Positions 16,986 through 29,409 of a stretch of DNA of 46,154 nt are shown piece after piece. Where the stretch lies: the NCBI RefSeq assembly GCF_000469585.1, contig NZ_AWNK01000010.1:18325-64478 (forward strand). The letters run 5' to 3'. Within the stretch, counting starts at the first letter, position 1. Every line of letters begins with the position of its first letter. Under the pieces are notes generated by a model, which worked only from the letters and a program-made list of their open reading frames with translations, ran no database searches and had not been told where the DNA came from. A program made the translations under genes and the position numbers. The DNA comes from Chrysiogenes arsenatis DSM 11915. GTDB lineage: Bacteria > Chrysiogenota > Chrysiogenetes > Chrysiogenales > Chrysiogenaceae.

Positions 16986-17031
16986 CACTGACAAAAAAAG
17001 CGGGCGAGTATGCCCGCTTTTTTTGTCAGTG
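16986..17031. terminator. Strong bidirectional intrinsic terminator
   Basis: A perfect 20 bp inverted repeat (arms CACTGACAAAAAAAGCGGGC and its complement) around a six-base loop GAGTAT. T-runs lie on both strands. It ends the plus-strand genes and the minus-strand amidase-mutase operon. Confidence 0.9.
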
Positions 17032-17040
17032 TACAGACGC

Positions 17041-19323
17041 TCAGAGTGCTTTGTGCTCTGACAGCAAGAACATCAATGGCAGCTCGAGTCGTTCGCGCCA
17101 AGCCGCTTCTGAGTGCTCGGCGCCGTCAAATTTGCACGTTATCCAATCTTCATTTTCCACATATCCCGCCAGACGGATTCGTCTATCAACGACCTGCTGA
17201 TAGGCTTCATACGGCGCATCGACCCCTTCCGTTCCAAAATCAAAATAGAGCCGATGCGTTCCCGCAGGTGGCAAGTGATCAGCCAAATAGACCTCCATTT
17301 TTCCTGCAACGGCTGGCCAGTGCGTTGAAAGTGCGGCTACGCCACCAAATACGTGTGGATATTCGCACAGGCCGTAGATGGAAATAATGCCACCCATACT
17401 GGAACCCAGCAGAAACGTATTGTTTTGATCAGAAAGTGTGCGGTAATGCATATCAATAAAAGGCTTTAGCTCGTTAACGAGAAAGGCGAGATAGGTATCG
17501 CCTTTTGGTGTTCCCCATTCCTGTTGGTACGCGCGCTGCTCTACGTGACTCAGAGCGTTTTCAAAAACCCGCGTGGCATCGTATTCGTTATAACGTTCCG
17601 GTGTATTCCAAATGCCAACGACAATTGCTTCGCGGATGGCACCTTCGGCAATCAGCCGTTCCATGGTTACGCCGAATCCCCAATCGACCCCAGCAAAAGA
17701 GGTTGCTGGGTCAAACAAATTCTGCCCATCGTGAACGTACAGAACCGGATAGCGCTGGTATGCGTTGGTGGCATAGTGTGGTGGCCGCCAAATAGTGATA
17801 TGGCGTGGCGCGCAGGTTGCCGAGGGAAAGTTGGAGTGCTGAACGAGCGTTCCATGCGTAGGAGTATGACGTGGTGGGTCGATATCAATTGCGAGTTGTG
17901 GCAATCCTCTTTCGCGTAACAGATGCGCGACGAGGCAGCGATAGTGATCAAGTTGGTCCTGCGTCGTGGCTTCAAAACGACACGAAAGCGCGGCGCGTGT
18001 AGTACTGGTTCGCAGTAATACCCATCCTTCGTGAAACACGATGCGGAGCCCATCAACCGTGATGACATCGCGAATACCGTACTGTTTGCGGAACTCAGGG
18101 GAAGCACAGTCAAGAGTGAGCGCTTCAAAAAAGGTTTGCAACGACGGCACGGGCGCAAAAACATAGAGTTCGGGGGTGTTGACCACTGTTTGAAAAGGGG
18201 CAATATATTCGCCTATTTCCGCTTGGTGGGTACGAAAAAAATTGCCAAAGCGGCACGCTGCGTACAGCGCATCGTCAAGCGCCGTAGTATCATCGCCAAA
18301 GAAAATATGGCCACTTAATTCCCCGGCAAGGAGGGCGTGCTGCTCAATCATCTGTGTGCGGAGCAAAGAGCGACCGGTCTTCCCGAACATTGCCTTGATC
18401 CCAAGTTCGTGCAGCTGGTCAAAGAAAACCTGCGAGAGTTTACAATCTCCAATGGCGGTTATGGCATCTGGCCGTTGCGAACGGATATCACATGCCAGTA
18501 GCAAGAGGAGTTCTTCCATGCGCAAGCGGCCGTGGCCGCCAAGAATAACCGCCAGCCGATCGCCATCGCCATCAAAGGCAAAGCCGATATCAAGTTTATG
18601 CGTGGCGACATACCGCTCGAGTGTCATCAGATTGGTGGCAATCGCCGGATTAGGGTGATGATCAGGGAAATGACCATCGGGGACGCAAAAGAGTTCGTGT
18701 ATTTCGGCACCAAGCAAACGGAGCACGTGTGGTGCGATGATGCCACAACTGCCATGTCCCCCATCAATCGCAATGCGCAACCCATCGAGGCGAAAGGGTT
18801 TATTGGTTAAAAAATCACGGTATTGCTGGTGTACTGTTTCGCGCGCGATGGTGTCAGTCGGAAGTGAAATTTTATGCGGAGCATTGACGAAAGCTTGTAC
18901 CGCACAGGAAGCAATCTGTTGTAAATCGCTTTGGGTAGGGATTTCACCGCGCAGTGTCAGTTTGAGTCCATTGATTTCCGGCGGGTGATGACTGCCGGTT
19001 ATCATCAGCGAGACGTCAAAGCATGGTGTCGCGTAACGCGTCGCAAAGGCGGCGATAGGCGTGGTACATAACCCACCAAAATGAATAGAGCTTTGTGGCA
19101 TTTGCTGGTGCAAAGCGCATAAGACATCATGGGCGATGCGCGGCGAATGGAGTCGACTATCGTGACCGACAAAGAGTGTTGGAACCGCAACGCCGCGCCC
19201 ATGCAGCCACTGCGCTATCCCGCATACGATTGCCTGAATGGCAGCCGTATGGAGTCCGGCGCGGGCGTCACCGCGAATATCACTGATACGAAATATCGTT
19301 TGGTCGAGCGTGGCAACGTCCAT
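17041..19323 (-). CDS. Phosphohexomutase fused to an esterase (Fes/IroE-like) domain
   Basis: About 760 residues with two enzyme modules (numbering from the in-frame TTG two codons upstream). Residues 10-475 are an alpha-D-phosphohexomutase (PMM/PGM type): phosphoserine loop TGSHHPPEINGLK with Ser113, metal-binding FDGDGDR at 252-258 and sugar-binding GELSGH at 336-341. After a linker, residues 490-762 form an alpha/beta-hydrolase of the putative esterase family: oxyanion region VLYVHDGQNLFD, nucleophile GSSMG with Ser644, an Asp near 697-704 and His739 in AEHSEAAWRERL. The first should interconvert hexose 1- and 6-phosphates, the second cleave an ester. I know of no standard family with this order. 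It is downstream of amidase and SspB-like genes. ATG 19323 has only a weak ribosome site. Confidence 0.9.
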   Translation of the reverse strand: MDVATLDQTIFRISDIRGDARAGLHTAAIQAIVCGIAQWLHGRGVAVPTLFVGHDSRLHSPRIAHDVLCALHQQMPQSSIHFGGLCTTPIAAFATRYATPCFDVSLMITGSHHPPEINGLKLTLRGEIPTQSDLQQIASCAVQAFVNAPHKISLPTDTIARETVHQQYRDFLTNKPFRLDGLRIAIDGGHGSCGIIAPHVLRLLGAEIHELFCVPDGHFPDHHPNPAIATNLMTLERYVATHKLDIGFAFDGDGDRLAVILGGHGRLRMEELLLLLACDIRSQRPDAITAIGDCKLSQVFFDQLHELGIKAMFGKTGRSLLRTQMIEQHALLAGELSGHIFFGDDTTALDDALYAACRFGNFFRTHQAEIGEYIAPFQTVVNTPELYVFAPVPSLQTFFEALTLDCASPEFRKQYGIRDVITVDGLRIVFHEGWVLLRTSTTRAALSCRFEATTQDQLDHYRCLVAHLLRERGLPQLAIDIDPPRHTPTHGTLVQHSNFPSATCAPRHITIWRPPHYATNAYQRYPVLYVHDGQNLFDPATSFAGVDWGFGVTMERLIAEGAIREAIVVGIWNTPERYNEYDATRVFENALSHVEQRAYQQEWGTPKGDTYLAFLVNELKPFIDMHYRTLSDQNNTFLLGSSMGGIISIYGLCEYPHVFGGVAALSTHWPAVAGKMEVYLADHLPPAGTHRLYFDFGTEGVDAPYEAYQQVVDRRIRLAGYVENEDWITCKFDGAEHSEAAWRERLELPLMFLLSEHKAL

Positions 19324-19332
19324 GGTCAACAG

Positions 19333-19749
19333 TTAGCGAGGGAACAATTTGCGGATTTTGGGTTTTTCTTCGCCTGTTTTTTCAGATGAATCCGTTGGGA
19401 TGGGTGGCATTGATTGCGAACGATTTTCGGCAAAAATCGCATCAAGTTCTTTGGGAAAATACGCCTGACCCTGAATTTTTTCGTCAAAAATCGAATAGGT
19501 GGCGACCACTGCATCGTTTGAAATCAACACTGACGTGCGGTTCCCTTCAAACACCAACGTACAGGCAAGGCACTCGTTTTCGTAACTCCATGGTGGTTGT
19601 GTCATCGGGTTAAAAATGAGAACGACTTGTTTTTCGGCATTGAAATATTTGTCAGCAATGCCGGTACAAAGTCCGCGCGTTTTATCGACGACAAGGTAGG
19701 CGGAGCCGTAATAGCGAATAAAGCCTTCAAAAATATCGAATTTTTCCAT
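19333..19749 (-). CDS. SspB-like protein (possible ClpXP adaptor)
   Basis: A 138-residue protein. The middle follows the stringent starvation protein B plan: AYLVVDKTRGL, then VVLIFNP, then a strand with a Gly-Asn turn, then SVLISNDAVVATYS and a final GQAYFPKE. The basic C-terminus (KPKIRKLFPR) after a flexible acidic/Pro stretch resembles the SspB tail that docks on ClpX. SspB delivers ssrA-tagged proteins to the ClpXP protease. Identity is limited, so this remains a fold-level call. The ATG at 19749 has GGGAG upstream; a longer in-frame reading into the amidase gene is not likely. It sits 19 bp after amiC. Confidence 0.55.
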   Translation of the reverse strand: MEKFDIFEGFIRYYGSAYLVVDKTRGLCTGIADKYFNAEKQVVLIFNPMTQPPWSYENECLACTLVFEGNRTSVLISNDAVVATYSIFDEKIQGQAYFPKELDAIFAENRSQSMPPIPTDSSEKTGEEKPKIRKLFPR

Positions 19750-19768
19750 GACATCTCCCTCAGTATGA

Positions 19769-21607
19769 TCATTGAGCCGCATAGCGCATGATGCCGCGTG
19801 CAATATGTTCTGCAAGTAATTCGCGATAGGCAGGACTCGCCAGTAATTCCCCTTCGCGTCGATTCGAAATAAAGCCCACTTCGAGCAAAATTGAGGGCAT
19901 TTGCGCTCCGATAAGGACATAAAAAGGTGCTTTCTTCACCCCTTTATCGGGAATATCAGGATAACGCTGGCGCACACCATTTACAAGTTGCCGGTGTACG
20001 GCTTGCGCCAGTACGGTTGACTCGCTGATTTTTGAATTCATCATCAAATCTTTTAAAATACCTTGCAAGTCACTGACACTTTTTTCACTGATGGCATTTT
20101 CGCGTGCCGCCAATTCCATCGCTTCCGGGTCGGTAGCAATGTTCAGGAAGTACGTTTCAATCCCAAATGCTTTGGTATTACGGCTCGCGTTCGCATGGAT
20201 CGAGATAAACATATCGGCTTTTTTCGTATTCGCAAAGGCTGTCCGTGCTTCTAGTGGTAAAAAAACATCCGTTGTACGAGTGAGGAGAACGTCAAGGGTG
20301 GAATGGCGACGCAAGTAGTCGGCTACTTTCAGTGAAAGATCGAGCACAACATCCTTTTCGCGCAACCCGCGATAGCCTATTGCGCCTGGATCACGGCCGC
20401 CGTGGCCAGCGTCGATCACCACGCGGTTGACGTGCAAGCCAAGTTGACGCGCTAAACTCATGGAGCCGCCGGAAAGAGTTGGCGTAAGCGAAGCAATTTG
20501 GGTGGAGCTGCTGCTTGGAGTTTGTCCTGGGCGGAGTTTCCCTTTCGCGTCGACGACGGGAACGGCGGTCGATGACGAAGTGGACGGTTCAATTTTTGAT
20601 GGTGTTGCCACCGCTGCGGTGTTCATTGCTCCCGATGTCTGCTGTGTTTTCGCAACTGTGTTGCTGTTCAAGTCAATAACTAAGCGGGTTGGATTTTTGA
20701 GCGTGAAAACATTAAAATCATCAACCGTGTTGATGTCAAATACCACACGGAGCGTATCGCGATCAAAGCGGGCAGCGCGGATCGCCGTCAGTTGCGTATT
20801 ATTAAGGGTGATATTGTCGAGATTGTCATCCTTGTCGACCCCGAAAATATCGATAAATAAACGGGGAGGCTTGCCAAGCACACGATCTTCGCGAAGCCAG
20901 TGCCGCTTAAAAGAAACTTCTGCATTGTCATCTGAAAAGCGGAGCACAGCGCGGGTATAGTCATCATTCGAATAGGTATCAATGTTGATAAGGCGCGCGG
21001 AAGAATTGGATGAAGTGTTGGCTGGTGCGCTTGATTTTGCGGGAGCCTGCACTACGCTGGGGGGGGATCCGGCTACCCGGTTGTTAATACTTTCAATCCG
21101 CTCACGGGCTTTTGCCACCATATCGCCAGAAGGAAACCGATTCAGTACCTGTTCGTATTGACGTAAGGCAAGCACTAAATCACCTTTTTCGATCTCGTAC
21201 ACCTCGCCAGCCAAAAACGCACCATCATCAGCTAAGTTGCTTTCTGGATAACGATTCGAGAGCGTACGGAACGTATTTAACGCTTGCTCTAAATCGTAGG
21301 TTTTAGAAGAAAGGCGATAGAGTTTCAGGTACGCATGCGCCGCATGGTACATCGCTTTCGGTGCATTCTCACTGCGCGGGAAGTTAAAGTAGAAATACTC
21401 GAATCTTTCGATAGCATTCAGCCATGAAGAACGGTATTGCACTGCGCTGTTCTTTTCCAGCGCGCGATAATAGTTGATGGCGTTCTGATAGTATTCCGTT
21501 TCGTAATTGCTACCCCATGCAGGAGTGACCATCAAGAGCAGAATGAGAATCAATCCCCGCATACAACGCCGCACAATCCCCCCTTTATTTTTCGGAAACG
21601 CCATCAT
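19769..21607 (-). CDS. N-acetylmuramoyl-L-alanine amidase, AmiC type, with TPR and AMIN domains
   Basis: A 612-residue exported cell-wall hydrolase. An N-terminal signal sequence (residues about 14-32, GLILILLLMVTPAWG) is followed by TPR-like repeats (residues 35-180, with FRTLSNRYPES and YEQVLNRFPSG). Next come a Ser/Pro linker, an AMIN domain (about 205-310, with LFIDIFG and RLVIDLN) and the Amidase_3 catalytic domain from about 390 (VVIDAGHGG, then E in GLREKDVV, SIHAN, and LLEVGFISN). It cuts the amide between MurNAc and the stem peptide, usually during daughter-cell separation. The AMIN domain normally targets septal peptidoglycan. The TPR extension is uncommon in AmiC of enterobacteria. 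AGGAGA precedes the ATG. Confidence 0.92.
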   Translation of the reverse strand: MMAFPKNKGGIVRRCMRGLILILLLMVTPAWGSNYETEYYQNAINYYRALEKNSAVQYRSSWLNAIERFEYFYFNFPRSENAPKAMYHAAHAYLKLYRLSSKTYDLEQALNTFRTLSNRYPESNLADDGAFLAGEVYEIEKGDLVLALRQYEQVLNRFPSGDMVAKARERIESINNRVAGSPPSVVQAPAKSSAPANTSSNSSARLINIDTYSNDDYTRAVLRFSDDNAEVSFKRHWLREDRVLGKPPRLFIDIFGVDKDDNLDNITLNNTQLTAIRAARFDRDTLRVVFDINTVDDFNVFTLKNPTRLVIDLNSNTVAKTQQTSGAMNTAAVATPSKIEPSTSSSTAVPVVDAKGKLRPGQTPSSSSTQIASLTPTLSGGSMSLARQLGLHVNRVVIDAGHGGRDPGAIGYRGLREKDVVLDLSLKVADYLRRHSTLDVLLTRTTDVFLPLEARTAFANTKKADMFISIHANASRNTKAFGIETYFLNIATDPEAMELAARENAISEKSVSDLQGILKDLMMNSKISESTVLAQAVHRQLVNGVRQRYPDIPDKGVKKAPFYVLIGAQMPSILLEVGFISNRREGELLASPAYRELLAEHIARGIMRYAAQ

Positions 21608-23561: not shown

Positions 23562-24794
23562 ATGCTATTACCATCATTGAGCTTTGCCCGTGTCGGCAGG
23601 GCGGTATCGGTGCTATTAATCGGCGCGATTCTACCGCTGTCGGTTTTCAGTGCACCATTACTGGAGCTCTCGCAGGCCGAATCCATCGCCATCGGGCGTG
23701 ATTTGCCACGACAGCAGAGTGAGCAGATCGGGCAGGGCTATCACACCGAATCACGTGCAGCGCGATTTTTCCCCGATCCACAGCTGATTGTCGGCTATGA
23801 AGATGCGGCGACCATGTATGAATATTCCATCGGCCTGCGCCAGGAAATTCCCCGCTGGAAGCGGCTTGATCTGCGGCAAGAACAGTTGGGGCACATGGCA
23901 GAAAGTGCACAGTACCGCGCAAATATTGCCACACTGGATGCTCTGCGCGAAACGCGGCTGGCGTGGTTTGACCTGTGGTATCAGTTGCGTGCCGTCGATA
24001 TTATTGAACACCATGCCACCATTCTTGGCGAGCTTTCTCAGGTCGCCCGTGAACGCTATGCCGCCGGAGGGTTGACGCAACAACAACTCATACTGCTGGA
24101 TCTTGAAGAGCGGATGCAGCGCGATCGTTTACTGGCAGCGCAGGAAAATACCGAAGTAACCCGCGCCGCGCTGGCGCGCTTGATTGGTGCTGAGGTGGCT
24201 GAGCAGAACCTTCCCGCAACACTCCCCACCCTTCCGACCCTTTTGGCACTGGAATCTTTGGAAGCACTGTTGCCGCAACATCCGGCTGTTCTTGCCATGC
24301 AATCGGGTATCAGCGTTGCCGAAAAAGAGACGGAAATTGCTGGGCAATACTACAGCAGTACAATGGTTGATTTCCTGTACGCCAGAAATAATCGCAATAC
24401 GGAAACCTTTGGCGTCATGTTGACCGTGCCGATTCCTGTGTTCGCCAGTGCGCGTCAAGGGCGGCAGGAAGCGGCCAGCCGTCACATGGTTGAAGCAGCC
24501 AGACTGGAGCGTGCCGACCTTTTGCGCAGCATGCAGAGTGATATTGCCGTACAGCATCGCCGCTTGTCACGCCTTGACGAACGTCTGCAACTCTACCGCA
24601 GTGATATCCTGCCGCAGAGCCGCCTTGCCAGCGAAGCTGCCACGGCGAGCTATCAGCACAGCACGGATGATTTTATCAATCTGATGCGCAGTACGGTGTA
24701 TGAGCTGGAAAATGAGTTGAGCGCGGTGCAACTGCAAGTGGATCGGGCAAAAACGGTGACGCGACTCCTCTACTATCAGGATGTGCAACCATGA
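23562..24794 (+). CDS. cusC: TolC-family outer membrane channel (CusC/CzcC type)
   Basis: A 410-residue outer-membrane efflux channel. An N-terminal signal (about 1-31, ending VFSA) is followed by the long helical TolC repeats (ELSQAESIAIGRDLP..., LDALRETRLAWFDLWYQ, SQVARERYAAGGLTQQQLILLDLEERMQ), with the second repeat after residue 240. It forms the trimeric exit duct for the RND pump. It lacks a lipobox Cys at the signal cleavage point, unlike E. coli CusC. The stop overlaps the adaptor start (ATGA), so the operon is translationally coupled. Confidence 0.85.
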   Translation: MLLPSLSFARVGRAVSVLLIGAILPLSVFSAPLLELSQAESIAIGRDLPRQQSEQIGQGYHTESRAARFFPDPQLIVGYEDAATMYEYSIGLRQEIPRWKRLDLRQEQLGHMAESAQYRANIATLDALRETRLAWFDLWYQLRAVDIIEHHATILGELSQVARERYAAGGLTQQQLILLDLEERMQRDRLLAAQENTEVTRAALARLIGAEVAEQNLPATLPTLPTLLALESLEALLPQHPAVLAMQSGISVAEKETEIAGQYYSSTMVDFLYARNNRNTETFGVMLTVPIPVFASARQGRQEAASRHMVEAARLERADLLRSMQSDIAVQHRRLSRLDERLQLYRSDILPQSRLASEAATASYQHSTDDFINLMRSTVYELENELSAVQLQVDRAKTVTRLLYYQDVQP

Positions 24795-26287
24795 AAAATG
24801 CCTTTTTTATTCTCATTGCCTTTTTCCTTGGTGCGGGAGCGGCGTGGTATATCGCCTCGAGTACGGTTGATCACTCCACGCACGAAAGCGTTGCCACAAG
24901 CGATCAAAGTGAACGGAAAATCCTCTATTACCGCCATCCACACAGCCCGCGCATCACGTCAGACAAACCGATGAAGGATGAAATGGGGATGGATTACATT
25001 CCGATTTATGCCGACGGGAACGACTCTGGCGGCAATGGCATTACCATCGCGCCGGAAGTAGTGCAGAACCTTGGTGTCCGTACCGCACCGGTGAGCCGCG
25101 CCACCATAACGCCGACCATAGAAGCATTTGCTACCGTCGCGTATGACGAAAAACGGCTGTCGCATGTCCATGTGCGCGCCGAAGGGTGGATAGAGCGGCT
25201 CATGGTGCGATCGCTTGGCGAACGGGTAAAACAGGGCGATCTGCTTTTTGAATGGTACTCGCCGCAGCTCGTTAATGCGCAGGAAGAATACCTGCGCGCT
25301 TTGCGGATTGGTCAGGCGGGTGTTAAACAGGCCGCGCACGAGCGGTTGCTGGCGCTCGGCATTGCGGCATCGACCATCGAGCGACTGGAAAAGCAAGGCC
25401 GTCCGTTCCAACTCTTGCCCGTTTATGCCCGTGCGAACGGCGTGGTCAGCGAAATCGCTGTGCGCGATGGGATGTACATTACCCCCGGACTTGACATTAT
25501 GACCTTCGCCGACCTTTCCAGCACGTGGGTCTACGTTGATCTTTTTGAACATCAGGCGCGCCACGTTGCTCTTGGCCAGTCAGCGTCACTCACGCTCACG
25601 AGCCTGCCGCAAACCGTGTTGCGCGGCGCAGTGGAATACCTAGCACCGGAACTTGACCCGCAAACCCGCACGATCCGCGCCCGCTTGCGCTTTGCCAACC
25701 CAGACGAAACGATGAAGCCGAATATGTACGGTCGTGCGCATATTGCCCTGCCTGCCCGCGAAAACGTTCTGCTGATCCCACGCGAAGCGCTCATTCGCAG
25801 CGGGAATGAAGAGCGTGTTGTGCTGGCGCGTGATGCCGGACGCTTTGAAGTCGCTCGCGTCACAAGTGGCGTAGAAAGCGGTCATGAAGTGGAAATTCTG
25901 TCCGGTTTGCAGGAAAGCGATACCGTGGTGGTCTCGGCACAATTCCTGATCGACTCTGAGAGTAGCCTGAACGCGGCGTTCAAACGGATGGAACCGGTGG
26001 ATACTGCTGAAGCAGAGGCCACCGACGCACCACTGCCCGTGATGGCGGTTTGGGCAGAGGGCACCTATCACGGCGCGGGACACAAAGAAGGTACTATCAA
26101 CCTTTCACATGACCCGATTGTTGAATTTGGCTGGCCAGCCATGAAGATGGATTTGCCACTGGCGCCCGGTGTAACGCTCGGTGAAGTAGCGCCCGAAACA
26201 CCAATCCGCTTTGAACTTGAGCGGCTGGACGAAATCACCTACCGCATTCTCGCCATTAAGCCGCGCAGCGGAGGGGGCACGCCATGA
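24791..26287 (+). CDS. cusB: Periplasmic adaptor CusB with heavy-metal-binding N-terminus and fused CusF domain
   Basis: A 498-residue membrane-fusion protein anchored by one N-terminal helix (about 4-22). Residues 45-75 form a degenerate heavy-metal-binding domain (YYRHPHSPRITSDKPMKDEMGMDYIPIY) carrying His and Met ligands. The hairpin and lipoyl/barrel regions follow (YSPQLVNAQEEYLRAL, YARANGVVSEIAVRDGMYI, YLAPELDPQTRTIRAR). The last 80 residues are a CusF-like module (LSHDPIVEFGWPAMKMDL) with the His, Trp and two Met that bind Cu(I)/Ag(I). The adaptor links pump and channel and hands metal to CusA. Fusion of CusF to CusB is uncommon and occurs here together with a free CusF. Confidence 0.9.
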   Translation: MKNAFFILIAFFLGAGAAWYIASSTVDHSTHESVATSDQSERKILYYRHPHSPRITSDKPMKDEMGMDYIPIYADGNDSGGNGITIAPEVVQNLGVRTAPVSRATITPTIEAFATVAYDEKRLSHVHVRAEGWIERLMVRSLGERVKQGDLLFEWYSPQLVNAQEEYLRALRIGQAGVKQAAHERLLALGIAASTIERLEKQGRPFQLLPVYARANGVVSEIAVRDGMYITPGLDIMTFADLSSTWVYVDLFEHQARHVALGQSASLTLTSLPQTVLRGAVEYLAPELDPQTRTIRARLRFANPDETMKPNMYGRAHIALPARENVLLIPREALIRSGNEERVVLARDAGRFEVARVTSGVESGHEVEILSGLQESDTVVVSAQFLIDSESSLNAAFKRMEPVDTAEAEATDAPLPVMAVWAEGTYHGAGHKEGTINLSHDPIVEFGWPAMKMDLPLAPGVTLGEVAPETPIRFELERLDEITYRILAIKPRSGGGTP

Positions 26288-29200
26288 TTGCCGCCGTCAT
26301 TCGCTGGTCGATAGGCAACCGGATTTTCGTCCTGATTGCGGCAGTGCTGCTGACGTTCTGGGGAGTGTACGCAGTAAAGAACACACCGCTGGACGCCATT
26401 CCCGACCTGTCGGACGTGCAGGTGATCATCAAAACCTCGTATCCCGGCCAAGCGCCGCAGGTGGTCGAGCAACAGGTAACGTATCCGCTCTCCAGCGCCT
26501 TGCTGGCCGTGCCTAAAGCAGTGGCCGTGCGTGGCTATTCGATGTTCGGCGATTCGTACATCTACATCATTTTTGAAGAAGGCACTGACCTCTACTGGGC
26601 GCGTTCGCGCGTGCTGGAATACCTCAGTCAAGTTTCGGGCAATCTGCCAGAAGGGGCGACGCCGTCGCTCGGACCAGATGCCACCGGCGTGGGTTGGGTC
26701 TATCAATACGCTTTGGTTGACCGCACTGGTCGGCACGATCTGGGTGAACTACGCGCCTTGCAGGACTGGTTTTTGAAGTACGAACTGCAAACCGTGGCCG
26801 GCGTTTCCGAAGTAGCCACGGTCGGCGGCATGGTGCGGCAGTACCAAATTGTCGTCGCACCGGAAAAACTGCGCGCCTATGGCATCACCACCGATATGAT
26901 CAGCAGCGCCGTCAGCCGTGCCAATCAGGAAGTGGGCGGATCGTCGATTGAAATGGCCGAAGCGGAGTATATGATTCGCGCCAAAGGGTACATTCAGAGT
27001 GCGGATGAACTGCGCCATATTCCGCTGACACTTGGCGCCAACGGTGTGCCAGTGTTGCTGGGTGATGTCGCGGAAATCACTATGGGGCCGCAACTGCGGC
27101 GCGGCATTGCCGAGATGGACGGCGAAGGTGAAGTGGTTGGCGGCATTATCGTGATGCGCTCCGGCGAAAATGCCTTGGAAGTCATCAAGCAGGTGAAGCA
27201 AAAACTCGACGAACTGCGCCCCGGCCTCCCCGCTGGAGTGGAAGTGGTTACCACCTACGACCGCTCCGGCGTTATCGAACGCGCGGTGGAAAACCTGCAA
27301 AATACCGTTATCAAAGAATTGCTCGTCGTCGTAGCGGTGTGTGCGCTGTTTTTGCTGCATATTCGCTCTTCGCTAGTAATTGCGATTTGTCTTCCATTGG
27401 GTGTTTTGGTGTCATTTATCATTATGCACTGGCAAGGTATCAATGCGAACATTATGTCGCTCGGCGGTATTGCACTGGCGATTGGTGCCATGGTCGATGC
27501 GTCGATTGTGATGGTGGAAAATGTGCATAAACATCTGGAAAAAGAGGAGATTACGCCGCAGAATCGCTGGCGGATTATTACCGACGCGTCGCTCGAAGTC
27601 GGGCCGCCACTCTTTTTCGCACTGCTGATTATCACCGTCAGTTTCCTGCCCGTATTTACGCTGGAAGCTCAGGAAGGGCGGATGTTCGCACCGCTGGCCT
27701 ACACCAAAACCTATGCCATGGCAGCCGCCGCCGGGCTGGCCGTCACGCTGGTGCCGGTGCTGATGGGGTATTTTATCCGTGGCAAGATCATTCCGGAACA
27801 GAAGAATCCGCTGAATCGCGGACTGGTGGGGTTGTATCGTCCACTGGTCAATCTGGTACTCCGTTTTCCAAAAACCGTCATTGCGCTGGCGCTGATTTCG
27901 TGCCTCAGCGTGTGGTATCCGGTCAGTAAAATCGGCTCTGAATTTATGCCCGAACTCGACGAAGGGGATCTACTCTACATGCCGACGACGTTGCCGGGAA
28001 TTTCGCCGAGTAAAGTGGCGGAACTGCTCATGCAAACGGATCGGCTGATTTTAACCATTCCCGAAGTAGAGCGGGTGTTCGGCAAAGCTGGGCGTGCTGA
28101 AACGGCGACCGATCCGGCACCACTCACGATGCTGGAAACTACCATTAAGCTCAAGCCGCGCGAGGAATGGCGCGAAGGGATGACAACGCGCAAAATCATC
28201 GAAGAATTGGATGCCATCGTCAAGCTCCCCGGCGTTACCAACGCATGGGTAATGCCGATCAAAACCCGTATTGATATGCTGGCCACTGGGATTCGTACTC
28301 CGGTCGGTATCAAAGTTGCGGGGCCAGATTTGGCAGTGATTGAAACCATTGGCACCGAAATCGAACAGGCGATCAAAAACTTGCCCGGAACCGCGTCCGT
28401 CTATTCTGAACGGGTGACGGGTGGCCGCTATATTGATGTCGATATCGACCGCGTGGCGGCCGCACGCTACGGCTTGAACATTGCCGATGTGCAAGAAGTG
28501 GTACGCAGCGCCATTGGCGGAATGAATGTCGGCCAAACTATCGAAGGGCTGGAGCGTTACCCGATCAACCTGCGCTATCCGCGCGATGAACGCGATTCGC
28601 TGCAATCACTGCGCCAGCTTCCGGTAGCAACGCCCAGCGGTGTGTGGGTGGCGCTGGAGCAAGTGGCGAAGGTCGATATTGTCGATGGGCCGCCAATGAT
28701 TCGCAGTGAAAACGCGCGACTGAGCGGATGGACGTATGTCGACATTCAGGGGCGCGATCTGGGCGGCTATGTGCGTGAAGCGCGCGACACCGTACAGCGT
28801 TACGTAACGCTGCCGCCGGGCTATTCCATCAGTTGGTCGGGGCAGTATGAATATCTGGAGCGCGCCACCGAACGGCTGAAAATGGTGATTCCGCTGACAT
28901 TGGCGACCATCTTTTTGCTGCTCTATCTGAGCTTCCGCCGTATCGGCGAAACACTGTTGATCATGCTGACGCTACCGCTGTCGCTGGTCGGCGGCTTCTG
29001 GTATCTGCACTGGCTGGGATACAACCTCTCTGTCGCGGCTGGCGTTGGTTTTATTGCCCTCGCGGGGGTGGCGGCAGAAACGGGCATCATCATGCTGGTA
29101 TATCTCGACCAAGCGTATCAAAAACGACTTGATGCCGCGCAGCGCGAAGCGCGATCCGTATCACTGGCGGAATTGCGCGCAGCACTGGTTGAAGGGGCGC

Positions 29201-29409
29201 TGCTGCGGGTGCGTCCGAAAATTATGACCGTTGGCACCGTAATTGTCGGCCTGCTGCCGATTATGTTTAGCGAAGGCACCGGCGCAGAAGTAATGCGCCG
29301 CATCGCCGCACCGATGCTGGGTGGCATGGTAAGTGCCACTATTTTAACCCTTGTCATCATTCCGGCGATCTATTTCGTCTGGAAACAATACACTTTGAAG
29401 GAGCATTAA
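26284..29409 (+). CDS. cusA: Heavy-metal RND efflux pump, CusA type
   Basis: A 1041-residue inner-membrane pump with twelve predicted helices. The proton-relay segment NIMSLGGIALAIGAMVDASIVMVENVHKH lies in the fourth helix. The three-Met metal site that defines Cu(I)/Ag(I) pumps appears conserved as Met in LLYMP, LTMLETT (50 residues later) and RIDMLATG. The neighbouring FMPELDEGDLLYMPTTLPGIS and PIKTRID segments also match CusA. It exports monovalent copper or silver by proton antiport. Its ATG overlaps the cusB stop. Confidence 0.95.
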   Translation: MIAAVIRWSIGNRIFVLIAAVLLTFWGVYAVKNTPLDAIPDLSDVQVIIKTSYPGQAPQVVEQQVTYPLSSALLAVPKAVAVRGYSMFGDSYIYIIFEEGTDLYWARSRVLEYLSQVSGNLPEGATPSLGPDATGVGWVYQYALVDRTGRHDLGELRALQDWFLKYELQTVAGVSEVATVGGMVRQYQIVVAPEKLRAYGITTDMISSAVSRANQEVGGSSIEMAEAEYMIRAKGYIQSADELRHIPLTLGANGVPVLLGDVAEITMGPQLRRGIAEMDGEGEVVGGIIVMRSGENALEVIKQVKQKLDELRPGLPAGVEVVTTYDRSGVIERAVENLQNTVIKELLVVVAVCALFLLHIRSSLVIAICLPLGVLVSFIIMHWQGINANIMSLGGIALAIGAMVDASIVMVENVHKHLEKEEITPQNRWRIITDASLEVGPPLFFALLIITVSFLPVFTLEAQEGRMFAPLAYTKTYAMAAAAGLAVTLVPVLMGYFIRGKIIPEQKNPLNRGLVGLYRPLVNLVLRFPKTVIALALISCLSVWYPVSKIGSEFMPELDEGDLLYMPTTLPGISPSKVAELLMQTDRLILTIPEVERVFGKAGRAETATDPAPLTMLETTIKLKPREEWREGMTTRKIIEELDAIVKLPGVTNAWVMPIKTRIDMLATGIRTPVGIKVAGPDLAVIETIGTEIEQAIKNLPGTASVYSERVTGGRYIDVDIDRVAAARYGLNIADVQEVVRSAIGGMNVGQTIEGLERYPINLRYPRDERDSLQSLRQLPVATPSGVWVALEQVAKVDIVDGPPMIRSENARLSGWTYVDIQGRDLGGYVREARDTVQRYVTLPPGYSISWSGQYEYLERATERLKMVIPLTLATIFLLLYLSFRRIGETLLIMLTLPLSLVGGFWYLHWLGYNLSVAAGVGFIALAGVAAETGIIMLVYLDQAYQKRLDAAQREARSVSLAELRAALVEGALLRVRPKIMTVGTVIVGLLPIMFSEGTGAEVMRRIAAPMLGGMVSATILTLVIIPAIYFVWKQYTLKEH

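Follow-up and report, generated by a model that had tools for sequence, protein, structure and literature searches.

In Chrysiogenes arsenatis DSM 11915, an arsenate-breathing bacterium, a phosphohexomutase and an esterase are joined in one protein, and this fusion is genuine and lineage-specific. Judging from sequence, the protein most probably (with a rough probability of 0.55) combines a working esterase with a mutase whose activity is being lost or altered. The gene occupies positions 17041-19323 on the minus strand of the window (the whole stretch of 46,154 nucleotides that was analysed), which lies in contig 8, a 158 kb contig of a draft genome of 2,825,161 bases in 22 contigs. From the ATG at 19323 to the stop at 17041 a protein of 760 amino acids is encoded; an in-frame TTG two codons upstream would extend the frame to 17041-19329 (762 aa). 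The reading of the open frames and the Pfam matches showed that a single uninterrupted frame runs through the complete set of four phosphohexomutase domains and on into an esterase domain of family PF00756. This agrees with the initial annotation, which had described one continuous frame carrying both enzymes and had proposed a domain search of the full protein; in that search PGM_PMM domains I-IV and PF00756 were matched along the 760 codons. The catalytic motifs it named were correctly located, its Ser113 and Ser644 being counted from the TTG and corresponding to Ser111 and Ser642 from the ATG.

The linker between the two parts (17809-17937, minus strand) contains no ATG or GTG start for a separate esterase. 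The only candidate at the junction was a TTG at codon 474, directly abutted by the purine run AGAGGA, a spacing too tight for a normal ribosome site, and thus no convincing internal start of the esterase was found. A chance frame is excluded, since each half is a full-length homolog of a known family. GC3 was 0.53 in the mutase part and 0.50 in the esterase part, with similar values in the neighbouring genes, so that base composition gives no sign of a foreign origin.

The mutase part (17938-19296, minus strand) comprises Pfam domains I (18913-19296), II (18544-18825), III (18202-18513) and IV (17938-18060), found at residues 12-464 with E values of 1.7e-18, 7e-20, 6.2e-12 and 1e-5, respectively. 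The four models (PF02878, PF02879, PF02880 and PF00408) scored over their gathering thresholds and the phosphoserine, the DGDGD metal loop and the GExSGH loop are all present, as it is required for the alpha-D-phosphohexomutase superfamily. Against the PgmG equivalog NF046027 the fusion reached 265.6 bits with a curated cut-off of 600, a threshold that does not discriminate by itself because both family orthologs (369.5 and 358.7) and L016 (519.1) also fall below it.

The active site was compared in an alignment of 50 relatives including the P. aeruginosa PMM/PGM, whose numbering is used here. The equivalents of R20, S108, H109, K118, D242, D244, D246, R247, K285, E325, S327, H329, R421, S423 and T425 are kept. 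Among these features are the phosphoserine Ser111 (P. aeruginosa Ser108; 18991-18993, minus strand) and the DGDGD metal-binding loop (residues 251-255; 18559-18573, minus strand). Six active-site positions that are conserved in the relatives are changed: N110H, H308R, W/Y336T, N424T, T/Q426R and P427A; apart from W/Y336, they are fixed or nearly fixed. Asn110, His308 and Asn424 are invariant in the 50 sequences, and Pro427 is present in 49 of them. In the protein, His112 after the phosphoserine is followed by His113 in place of the invariant Asn, Arg318 (18370-18372, minus strand) replaces the invariant His308, and the phosphate-binding loop (residues 438-444; 17992-18012, minus strand) reads RTSTTRA, being RASNTQP in relatives. 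Consequently the signature of an active PMM/PGM (N110, H308 and a loop of the form RxSNTxP) is absent, with H, R and RTSTTRA found instead. When columns conserved in at least 95% of the sequences were considered, the C. arsenatis mutase departed from them 27 times versus 9 and 7 for the two orthologs, and every other aligned sequence showed 11 or fewer departures. The view that both catalytic sets are intact therefore stands for the esterase, whose Ser and His are present, but not for the mutase, altered at N110, H308, N424, T/Q426 and P427. Nothing usable was found in papers on the effect of these exact substitutions, including His308 and Asn110 mutants.

As the mutase of the AlgC/PgmG class from P. 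aeruginosa (PDB 1k35), the fused part has four domains, the phosphoserine, the metal loop, the GE-SGH sugar loop and the same fold. It differs by its lower identity (about 31%, compared with 38% for the family orthologs), by the substitutions N110H, H308R, N424T, T426R and P427A and, alone among these proteins, by the C-terminal esterase. When the mutase part was modelled with its own alignment, AlphaFold gave a pLDDT of 90.7, and the best PDB match of the model was the P. aeruginosa PMM/PGM (TM 0.84-0.88), indicating that the fold is preserved in prediction. The full-length model showed low confidence in mutase domain III, which is probably due to an alignment that mixes both families. A mutase fold with kept core residues and substrate binding that is catalytically silent has been described in PGM5, where phosphate-binding loop 4 is the least conserved (PMC7761743). 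PGM5 differs from the fusion in being a vertebrate, unfused protein in which other residues are changed.

The mutase of C. arsenatis is accelerated with respect to its two orthologs. In the tree, the mutase part grouped with both of them (SH-aLRT 99), although the program warned that long branches meet; despite this warning, orthology is supported by the shared gene order. The end branch was 2.96 in C. arsenatis versus 0.69 and 0.84 in the orthologs. Relative-rate counts with three outgroups gave 62-82 changes unique to C. arsenatis versus 33-44 in either ortholog (chi2 3.1-16.1). The glycogen synthases of the same three genomes, used as a control, gave 27-31 versus 26-29 changes (chi2 below 0.5). 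Pairwise identities alone did not reveal the acceleration, as the amidase and the small ORF upstream drop by similar points, but the outgroup test did show it. The acceleration may reflect adaptation to a new substrate instead of loss.

The esterase domain (PF00756; 17086-17808, minus strand) was matched at residues 508-748 with an E value of 8.9e-24 and 85.1 bits, well over the gathering cut-off of 22, and most of it has a pLDDT over 90 when the whole protein is modelled. The nucleophile Ser642 in GSSMG (17398-17400, minus strand) and the catalytic histidine His737 in GAEHSEAAW (17113-17115, minus strand) are invariant in all 33 relatives; candidates for the acid of the triad are the acidic residues at 695, 699 and 702. 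The end branch of the fusion esterase was ordinary (0.61). A relationship to the Fes/IroE enterochelin esterases, as first suggested, was rejected, since NCBIfam PRK10439 gave only 24.6 bits versus a cut-off of 222 and the nearest relatives are esterases linked to alpha-amylases. No signal peptide is apparent on the fusion protein, so the esterase should work in the cytoplasm.

Three phyla were searched with the esterase: that of G054 (291 genomes), Verrucomicrobiota (338 genomes, through L021) and Bacillota (299 genomes, through L023). Two others, to which G051 and G056 belong, held too few genomes to be informative. The best matches, with 46-52% identity, lie in Verrucomicrobiota open frames of 1,160-1,220 codons (L110-L114). 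Two of these five were scanned for domains and consist of a GH13 alpha-amylase, an Ig-like domain and the esterase; the other three are equal in length and layout. As in the fusion, the esterase is located at the C-terminus, but the partner is an amylase, apparently secreted, whereas that of C. arsenatis is a cytoplasmic mutase. Two of the five genes were confirmed to adjoin TonB receptors and one to be near a GH31 enzyme. The fusion esterase, the five GH13-linked proteins and two stand-alone ones formed a clade with a support of 100/99, which was still 99/99 after the addition of stand-alone proteins from Niveispirillum and Persicobacter. The stand-alone members (Niveispirillum, Persicobacter and two in the phylum of G054) lie in no clear glucan context. 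A separate, more distant branch of the same family carries the starch-binding domain CBM20 (L115-L117 and L124), and one of these genes, L117, adjoins GlgB and a GT5 synthase. By its sequence, the esterase is of a foreign type with its nearest relatives in other phyla. The link to alpha-glucans, drawn from relatives only, is suggestive and not general. Papers on starch-type esterases offered nothing usable, and the substrate of the GH13- and CBM20-fused esterases was not found in the literature searched.

The fusion gene is the third of a putative operon on the minus strand, after an AMIN-Amidase_3 N-acetylmuramoyl-L-alanine amidase gene (19769-21607) and a small conserved ORF of 139 aa lacking a Pfam match (19333-19752), and it is immediately followed by a terminator-like hairpin (16990-17022, minus strand). 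A promoter-like site lies ahead of the amidase gene, two genes upstream of the fusion; overall, promoter matches were no commoner than in shuffles. The small ORF is present in all three family genomes. In both others the order is amidase, small ORF, mutase and pilT (a PilT-type ATPase), with an unfused mutase and no esterase match in the genome. C. arsenatis keeps the first three genes, has the esterase at the end of the mutase and carries its PilT-type ATPases elsewhere. The possibility that relatives encode the two modules as separate adjacent genes was thus not borne out in the two family genomes. As the amidase neighbourhood predates the fusion, it is uninformative on the esterase, and the cell-wall role that had been proposed from this neighbour was dropped.

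No second mutase-esterase fusion was detected in about 1,000 other genomes, a survey lying outside Pseudomonadota, Bacteroidota, Actinomycetota and metagenomes. To this extent, the remark that no standard protein has this pair holds. None of the esterase relatives seen in the three phyla surveyed was fused to a mutase, and a genome-wide scan with the whole fusion as query returned esterase relatives only. Five esterases were found in a plasmid scan, none of them with a mutase, and the two closest, which were read, are stand-alone. When another phylum (77 genomes) was searched with the mutase, no frame with an extension of esterase size occurred among those followed up, two frames over 600 codons being left out. 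Phosphomannomutase-type matches in frames of 624 and 646 codons (usually 460) were noted in L077 (G366:C23:6174-7505) and at G386:C130:2663-3961.

Two other mutases are encoded in the genome: GlmM and, in an apparent GDP-mannose/GDP-fucose cluster, a ManB-type enzyme, which could relax the demand on the fused mutase. There is also a glycogen synthase of family GT5 and a phosphorylase of family GT35, the latter in pieces that lie where contigs C6 and C12 end; the product of GT35 glucan phosphorylase is Glc-1-P. GH13 enzymes were not found in the genome. The canonical GlgP (PF00343, E = 0 in both relatives, G001 and G002) had no match in the window's genome (G000), a loss that is only provisional because a contig gap could hide the gene. 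In the same genome, a HepT-like RNase (PF01934) is in frame with the ManB-type phosphohexomutase (L051:3724-5406; G000:C22, about 248723-250405). This junction has no start codon and the frame is preceded by an overlapping MNT-type nucleotidyltransferase, within the apparent GDP-mannose/GDP-fucose cluster; a further nucleotidyltransferase/HepT pair is found at L051:6745-7459.

The comparison shows that the mutase half, a phosphohexomutase of PMM/PGM type, was inherited vertically as a member of the operon of amidase, small ORF and mutase. In the favoured scheme, an esterase was joined to the C-terminus of the mutase in the Chrysiogenes line, where relatives have pilT; the difference itself is seen in the comparison and its direction is inferred. 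The esterase belongs to a family whose other members mostly stand alone or are linked to alpha-amylase or starch-binding domains. It is most likely active and would deacylate a sugar or a fragment of a glucan. The mutase domain would keep its fold and probably its binding of phosphosugars, with its mutase activity weakened or changed. Here a housekeeping mutase has clearly taken up a catalytic domain of foreign type, and its own active site has changed strongly; the unfused orthologs in the two sister genera offer natural controls. Should esters of glucose or maltodextrin be the substrates of the esterase, it would also point to a poorly described alpha-glucan-linked class with GH13- and CBM20-fused members.

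A coupled sugar-ester and phosphosugar step is possible. The protein could, less probably, be fully bifunctional, with an esterase that deacylates hexoses or their phosphates and a mutase that interconverts the freed hexose 1- and 6-phosphates; such an enzyme would connect glycolysis with storage glucan or with the precursors of the envelope by channelling sugar. The core catalytic residues of both halves are kept, both fold in prediction, the nearest esterases include alpha-amylase fusions and the genome has glycogen synthase and a phosphorylase releasing Glc-1-P. On the other hand, the six changed active-site positions (N110, H308, Y/W336, N424, T/Q426 and P427) and the lack of a match to the canonical GlgP of both relatives argue against it. 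To our knowledge, no acylated substrate is known in C. arsenatis.

It is unlikely that the fusion is a neutral accident, in which the mutase stop was lost beside an acquired esterase gene and the two parts work independently and uncoupled. Its occurrence in one species only, without another example among the searched genomes, and the odd in-frame HepT-ManB fusion would fit such an accident, but the linker of about 40 residues, devoid of a start codon, and the preservation of both domains suggest that the joined form has been retained over some time. It is quite doubtful that the protein is a new two-domain carbohydrate enzyme whose remodelled mutase site recognises acylated sugar phosphates for deacylation by the esterase; this would add a so far undescribed acyl-sugar-phosphate reaction to the metabolism of glucans or of the envelope. 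A sequencing or assembly artefact (a missing stop or a frameshift) is very improbable: the assembly is a draft whose contig breaks split another gene, but frame and codon make-up are continuous over a junction inside a 158 kb contig, the esterase has no remnant start codon, and pilT is not adjacent to the esterase, which implies a change larger than a one-base error.

Elsewhere in the window, a CusCBA-like efflux set was observed at 23562-29409, consisting of an OEP protein, an HlyD_D23 protein with a C-terminal CusF domain and an RND pump.
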